A stretch of DNA of 64,000 nt. It comes from Candidatus Falkowella caecavicola. GTDB taxonomy: Bacteria > Bacillota > Clostridia > Oscillospirales > Ruminococcaceae. The DNA lies in NCBI GenBank assembly GCA_904420125.1, contig CAJFUK010000031.1, positions 1 through 64,000 of the forward strand, written 5' to 3'. Below are positions 46,372-62,211 of the stretch, piece after piece; position 1 is the first letter of the stretch, and every line of letters starts with the position of its first letter. The position numbers and the translations under genes are program-made. The notes under the pieces are model-generated. The model made no database searches. It worked only from the letters and a program-made list of their open reading frames with translations, and was not told the DNA's origin.

Positions 46372-46606
46372 CAGACTGTCGAAAAAGTATCATGAGATGG
46401 AAACCGGCACGCAGGCAGCATATGCCCGCCTGCGCGACTCCGGCATTGGAGGTAAATCCAATGTCGGATTTCACGGGCAAAGCACCTGAAAAGAAAACCA
46501 GCGGTGTAAACGGCTTTGCCGATACTTACCGCTGGTTTTCGCTAAAAAAGTATGGGGAAAATGCAGAACAGGGTTTGACCGCAGCGACTGCGTTTGTCCT
46601 CCGAGG
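46372..46606 (+). repeat. Interspersed structured repeat, copy A
   Basis: First of two copies (the other at 61976-62162) of a sequence that starts CAGACTGTCGAAAAAGTAT and contains AAAAGAAAACCAGCGG and AATGCAGAACAGGG, then TTGACCGCAG and TCCTCCG. Hairpins: CGCAGGC/GCCTGCG (46410-46416, 46428-46434); a stem only in this copy around 46439-46466; a 12-bp stem AAAACCAGCGGT/ACCGCTGGTTTT (46494-46505, 46528-46539); and a weak third stem closing the conserved loop at 46555-46604. It begins 14 bases after the preceding gene. No coding sequence is shared, so it is a non-coding repeat. Confidence 0.75.
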
Positions 46607-46631
46607 GCGTATTGACTTTCCGGCATGTTTT

Positions 46632-46664
46632 CGGCCCGGCAGAATTTTCTGCCGGGCCGTTTTT
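46632..46664 (+). terminator. Strong intrinsic terminator of the lipid kinase operon
   Basis: A 12-bp perfect GC-rich stem (46632-46643 with 46648-46659), 4-base loop and TTTTT. It stands behind repeat copy A, so the repeat is transcribed with the operon above. Confidence 0.9.
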
Positions 46665-61975: not shown

Positions 61976-62162
61976 CAGACTGTCGAAAAAGTATGAATAA
62001 GAGTGAAAGCAGTCACGCAGATGGACATGTGCTGCCTGCGTGACTGCTAAAAAGAAAACCAGCGGCAAACGTTGCACCGCTGGTTTTTTGCTTGAAAAAA
62101 GGGGCGTTGGAGGAAAAATGCAGAACAGGGGTTGACCGCAGTCATTGCGTTTTTCCTCCGGG
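61976..62162 (+). repeat. Interspersed structured repeat, copy B
   Basis: Shares the start CAGACTGTCGAAAAAGTAT, AAAAGAAAACCAGCGG, CCGCTGGTTTT, AATGCAGAACAGGG, TTGACCGCAG and TCCTCCG with copy A (46372-46606). Hairpins are clearer here: GCAGTCACGCAG/CTGCGTGACTGC; AAAACCAGCGG/CCGCTGGTTTT (62055-62065, 62077-62087) with TT behind, like a terminator; and a 13-bp stem 62109-62121 with 62147-62159 closing a 25-base loop (the conserved GAACAGGG...TTGACCGCAG). Again it stands behind a gene end. Confidence 0.75.
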
Positions 62163-62211
62163 AGAGTTGTCAACATGCCGTTCATACCGTTCATACCGAT
62201 GCACTTGGGTA

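Follow-up and report, generated by a model that had tools for sequence, protein, structure and literature searches.

Insertion sequences of the IS1182 family (NCBIfam NF033551) are described with direct repeats of 2-60 bp (PMC7335449). One member, IS1272, targets stem-loops, several of which were identified as terminators by RNA-seq (PMC4923244), and it deletes the stem-loop that it targets (PMC4923244, PMC5678879). In pathway b of the proposed model, the stem-loop would instead be duplicated, through joining at its 5' feet (PMC5678879). The element described here resembles this family in its left end, CAGNCTGTCGAAAAAG, which recurs in IS1182-type insertion sequences from the same bacterial family and in one viral contig, in its choice of stem-loops/terminators as targets, and in its long, variable direct repeats. 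It differs in having no transposase gene, in its size of ~240 bp and in its internal three-hairpin core; moreover, whereas IS1272 removes its target stem-loop, the target of the element is duplicated. MITEs and MITE-like repeats such as MITEAba12, RUP, BOX and SPRITE are, like the element, short, non-coding, intergenic, bounded by inverted ends and multicopy in some genomes, and SPRITE is also terminator-like. Unlike them, the element targets the terminator hairpin itself, which is duplicated whole, and paired changes maintain its internal hairpins across genera and families. Group IIC introns insert beside terminator hairpins, a preference shared by the element, which differs from them in its lack of a group II match, its duplicated target and its transposon-type ends. 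Our literature search, in which subscription journals were thinly covered, found no description of the element itself.

The window (the whole stretch of 64,000 nucleotides analysed here) contains two related sequences, copies A and B, which are very probably decayed copies of a ~240 bp non-coding, MITE-like element that inserts at terminator hairpins and was probably moved by an IS1182-type transposase. The repeat pair is real: within the 2.4 Mb genome of the window (G000), BLAST aligns A and B in two blocks at 74-77% identity (E 5.6e-13 and 7.5e-5). An earlier note made from the sequence had put the shared length at about 190 bp, which is now extended to a core of ~215-240 bp with three hairpins, H1 to H3. 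The left boundary that it gave for A, 46372 (CAGACTGTCG...), stands, while comparison with relatives moved the right limits to ~46627 for A and ~62180 for B. The features are as follows (R1 is a covariance model described below, and g59 a genus rich in copies).

46372-46627, plus strand: copy A, decayed, with one foreign insert (BLAST to B; end-to-end alignment with 18 g59 copies; R1, E 7.6e-6)
46372-46390, plus strand: left end of A, CAGACTGTCGAAAAAGTAT, its first 17 bases being the left end of the IS1182-type element at viral contig locus L136
46406-46438, plus strand: H1 of A (folding; covariation in relatives)
46439-46483, minus strand: insert GTGAAATCCGACNTTGGATTTGNCCTCAATG, an unrelated dispersed repeat between H1 and H2 of A, absent from B and from all aligned relatives
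46493-46540, plus strand: H2 of A, AAAACCAGCGG...CCGCTGGTTTT, terminator-like on both strands (A-run, T-run) (folding)
46551-46603, plus strand: H3 of A, with conserved inner loop GAACAGGGTTTGACCGCAG (folding)
46604-46627, plus strand: right end of A, decayed, akin to GCGTGTCGACTTTATCGACACGCTC of intact copies (alignment)
46632-46659, plus strand: intrinsic terminator directly right of A
61976-62180, plus strand: copy B (BLAST to A; alignment with g59 copies; R1, E 3.4e-13)
61976-61994, plus strand: left end of B, CAGACTGTCGAAAAAGTAT
62009-62047, plus strand: H1 of B, with loop GGACATGTGC kept in relatives (folding)
62054-62086, plus strand: H2 of B, with a terminator-like score on the minus strand too (folding)
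62108-62160, plus strand: H3 of B, with loop GAACAGGGGTTGACCGCAG (folding)

Copy A does lie, as first reported, between the end of a gene (46358) and a terminator (46632-46659), and judging from this position alone the element would be transcribed. Crude reading-frame calls around the copies also returned antisense frames, which obscured the element's orientation with respect to adjacent genes. The flanks of A and B have no sequence in common by BLAST. Neither copy contains a transposase reading frame; the longest frames, 118 aa on the plus strand over A and 75 aa on the minus strand over B, lie on opposite strands and are far below transposase size. Neither BLAST nor a second covariance model, R2, built with A, B and sequences of further genera, revealed a third full copy in G000; the third match of R2 was the reverse strand of A. 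The absence of further copies, which the earlier note had named, together with an absence of pairing-preserving changes, as evidence against its proposal, holds within this genome, but many copies are present in relatives. A and B are probably old copies, immobile by now.

A search with the left-end motif AGNCTGTCGAAAAAGTAT brought up further genomes from the same bacterial family. At E<=0.001, two genomes of g59, G192 and G058, contain 53 and 52 matching places, respectively, some of which are pieces of one copy. The intact element in these genomes is about 240 bp long and consists of the left end CAGNCTGTCGAAAAAG, the three hairpins (H1, a terminator-like H2 and H3, which is long) and, as right end, the palindrome GCGTGTCGAC..GTCGACACGCTC, loosely inverse of the left end. 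Without its insert, A aligns end to end with 18 g59 copies, as does B. An independent test by covariance-model search used R1, which was built from g59 alone without any sequence of the window; in the window it finds B and A, with the E-values listed above, and nothing else. Across the family, R1 matched 19 of 248 genomes and 13 of 126 genera. R2 located 12 copies in G571 and 9 each in G446 and G537, all in other families of the order, and elsewhere in the order single or double matches near threshold. No match to the element was obtained on plasmids and phages, nor, using one H1 pattern, on viral contigs. A scan of all genome contigs for the loop motif was set aside, its 7 matches being about the number expected by chance and the one in Clostridia having no hairpin element around it. 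A different repeat, ACCTCCCTTGTCAAAGGGAGGGGGACCGCGC..GGTGGAGGGATTC, occupies dozens of places in g59 (G192/G058), including L064, L066, L070 and L072, and lies inside or beside some copies of the element, giving rise to longer variants.

Target-site duplications, which the earlier note had proposed to look for, were found at a number of copies. Comparison of the outer flanks of 49 copies, A and B included, gave a direct repeat with a score of at least 12 in 17; mismatched left-right flank pairs reach this score in 0.2% of 1500 draws. The duplicated flanks are terminator-type hairpins of 17-39 bp, for example AGCCGTCCCTTTTAAGGGACGGCTTATGT at L048 and AAAGCGGGGCCGCCGGAAAACTTCCGGCGGCCCCGCTTT at L096. 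The same comparison found no duplicated hairpin at the flanks of A and B, and it is for this reason that their mode of insertion is deduced from relatives. The terminator at 46632-46659 could be the surviving right copy of A's target hairpin, the left copy not having been found. Orthologous positions were compared by means of an empty-site query with 3417 of 4900 prepared bases, which covered seven of the ten sites, the last of these not quite in full. At L049 in G192 the hairpin stands twice, once on either side of the element; the orthologous position in G058 has one hairpin and no element. For two further copies (L170, L171), the sequence to the right of the element is matched at sites that lack it and have one terminator each.

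Orthologous copies of the element were also observed in two species between promoter-like sequence and a start codon (L046/L055, ~1500). Because these copies precede a start codon and are not at a terminator, the element may here lie in a 5' untranslated region; such off-terminator copies count against the reading proposed here.

The link to IS1182 comes from the ends. Behind the left end, IS1182-type transposase genes are present in three genomes, all of which carry the element: at L117 (G025), L116 (G244) and L119 (G175), where the insertion sequence is cut by the contig end. The viral contig locus L136 has an IS1182-type transposase gene behind the left end too. At all four loci the left end directly follows a hairpin; in G025, G244 and G175 it reads CAGCCTGTCGAAAAAG, and the left ends of A and B are identical to that of L136 at 17 of 17 bases. 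The protein encoded at L117 is an IS1182 transposase (NF033551; score 389.5 bits, cut-off 270), and this insertion sequence is complete, ~1562 bp long, with the 39 bp hairpin AAAGGCTGCTGCATTTCTTTCGGAAATGCAGCAGCCTTT on both sides. The likeness between element and insertion sequence is weaker at the right end than at the left. PF05598 is present in the carriers G025, G175, G244, G033, G226 and G221, among which matching left ends were seen for G025, G175 and G244. No PF05598 gene was found in G000, G192, G058 or G145, whose draft assemblies may miss it; G192, G058 and G145 are among the genomes richest in copies. A PF05598 match in G432 was discarded as belonging to another element without these ends.

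On the strength of these sequence comparisons, an IS1182-type transposase is most likely the mover of the element. An IS1182-family transposase would recognise the ends of the element in trans, and the element would be inserted at the stem-loop feet of an intrinsic terminator; joining would be staggered, and repair of the resulting gap would copy the whole hairpin to both sides. The element family fits pathway b of the model introduced above, and its many natural insertions, at least one of them with an empty site, provide material with which to study this unproven stem-loop-duplication branch. Since terminators are widespread, alike in shape and unlike in sequence, an element that targets them and duplicates the hairpin would occupy a nearly harmless niche.

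The second property of the element is its structure. Compared with dinucleotide shuffles, the single-strand folds are much more stable, with z -6.6 for A including its terminator and z -4.65 for B. The conserved loop GAACAGGG(K)TTGACCGCAG noticed previously is found in both A and B and is the inner part of H3, with the form GAACAAGGC-NNN-GCCGCAGTGAT in relatives. It had also been claimed that pairing is kept while the stems change, and this was borne out in an alignment of relatives, where 16 of 40 pairs are altered on both sides. Covariation was counted on a MAFFT alignment of 13 diverse copies (A4): 53 compensatory cells were obtained, versus 17.9+-3.3 after shuffling (0 of 500 shuffles as high) and at most 10 in slid controls, and 94% of the cells of this 13-copy alignment pair. 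This closer set was used because an alignment that took in distant groups (A3) misaligned H2, and A3 was dropped for covariation. Paired changes occur in the outer stem of H1, in H2 and in H3, while the inner stem of H1 hardly varies. In H1, a GG(A/G)CATG-type loop is constant and the outer stem varies (GTCAC/GTGAC, GTTCC/GGAAC, GTCAGGATTC/GAATCCTGAC, GTTGC/GCAAC), and conservation of the loop reaches across several bacterial families. As to a known RNA family, which would have spoken against the earlier proposal, the window has no Rfam match reaching a gathering cut-off and ten relatives matched only tRNAs outside the element; no group II intron core was matched in the window or these relatives.

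Together, these results support both halves of the original suggestion of a structured RNA or a non-autonomous mobile element: mobility, through the copy number in relatives, the duplicated target hairpins, the empty site and the ends shared with IS1182; structure, because the paired changes keep the fold. In a MITE the ends are expected to be kept while the inside drifts, so that an internal core conserved by paired changes across families is unusual, is not accounted for by transposition alone, and raises the question of what role the fold plays. Our best reading of the alignments is that the three-hairpin core has been maintained by selection across several families. We infer that it would be retained for some action of its folded form, as RNA or as extruded DNA, for example in restoring termination or in helping transposition. 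Possibly, H2 terminates transcription in both directions and thereby renders insertions harmless; the hairpins might assist transposition as extruded DNA; or a transcript of the element might have a function. The more specific proposal that the core functions, as RNA or as extruded DNA, in transposition or target choice appears rather unlikely. If true, the core could guide a hairpin-targeting transposase to terminators or act on the interrupted transcript, and its service in transposition or target choice would lead selection to preserve the fold across several bacterial families.

We next consider accounts other than an IS1182-moved element. The strong pairing-preserving changes, the retention of the H1 loop across several families and the orthologous copies common to two species (L046/L055) would all be expected of a vertically inherited, non-mobile structured RNA or 3'-UTR regulator, A and B then deriving from an old duplication. 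But matching places number about 50 per genome in g59 and lie at unrelated loci, target hairpins are duplicated, an orthologous empty site exists and A and B have no common flanking sequence. As a full account this explanation is refuted by the empty site, and we regard it as improbable; the structured core may nevertheless be a functional RNA that is carried by a mobile element.

We hold it equally improbable that the element is a MITE moved by another DDE family with long, variable target duplications. Several of the richest genomes, which are drafts, show no IS1182 gene, as such a mover would explain, but the 17-base identity of the left ends of A and B to that of the IS1182-type element at L136 and a target preference that is the same as that of IS1182-type elements both argue for IS1182. 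A REP/BIME-type element, mobilised by a single-strand (Y1) transposase, is less probable still: the element is small, palindromic, intergenic and numerous in some relatives, but the duplicated targets and the inverted ends indicate a DDE enzyme, and neither its size nor its order of three hairpins is like that of REP/BIME. Finally, derivation from a retroelement, for instance a group IIC intron, would account for the terminator preference and for a structured element, but it is the least credible of all, given that Rfam gave no group II intron in the window or ten relatives, that the target hairpin is duplicated where intron insertion is not known to duplicate its target, and that the left end matches that of IS1182 insertion sequences.

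Returning to the two copies in the window, A differs from B in an extra hairpin. This hairpin is real, but the extent first given to it, 46439-46466, is too short: it spans ~46439-46483, ~45 bp. Its description as an apparent insertion was right, but the inserted sequence comes from another family of repeats. By BLAST, the insert sequence is also present in G000 on contigs C6, C8, C49 and C74 (L009-L012), and the insert-repeat pattern with up to 3 mismatches occurs at 6 sites in G000 versus 0 for a reversed control pattern. Because the pattern recurs elsewhere in the genome, the insert is taken to be an unrelated dispersed repeat, which most probably inserted between H1 and H2 of copy A. The repeat carries the hairpin GAAATCCGACNTTGGATTTG, and on contig C8 it forms a degenerate head-to-tail run (L010, ~990-1310). 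Upstream of the insert repeat on contigs C6 (L009) and C49 (L011) there are long, near-identical stretches with a long hairpin, CTGTTGGTGAACAATAGACTTGCGG..CAAGTCTATTGTTCACCAACAG, which suggests a further repeated element in this genome.
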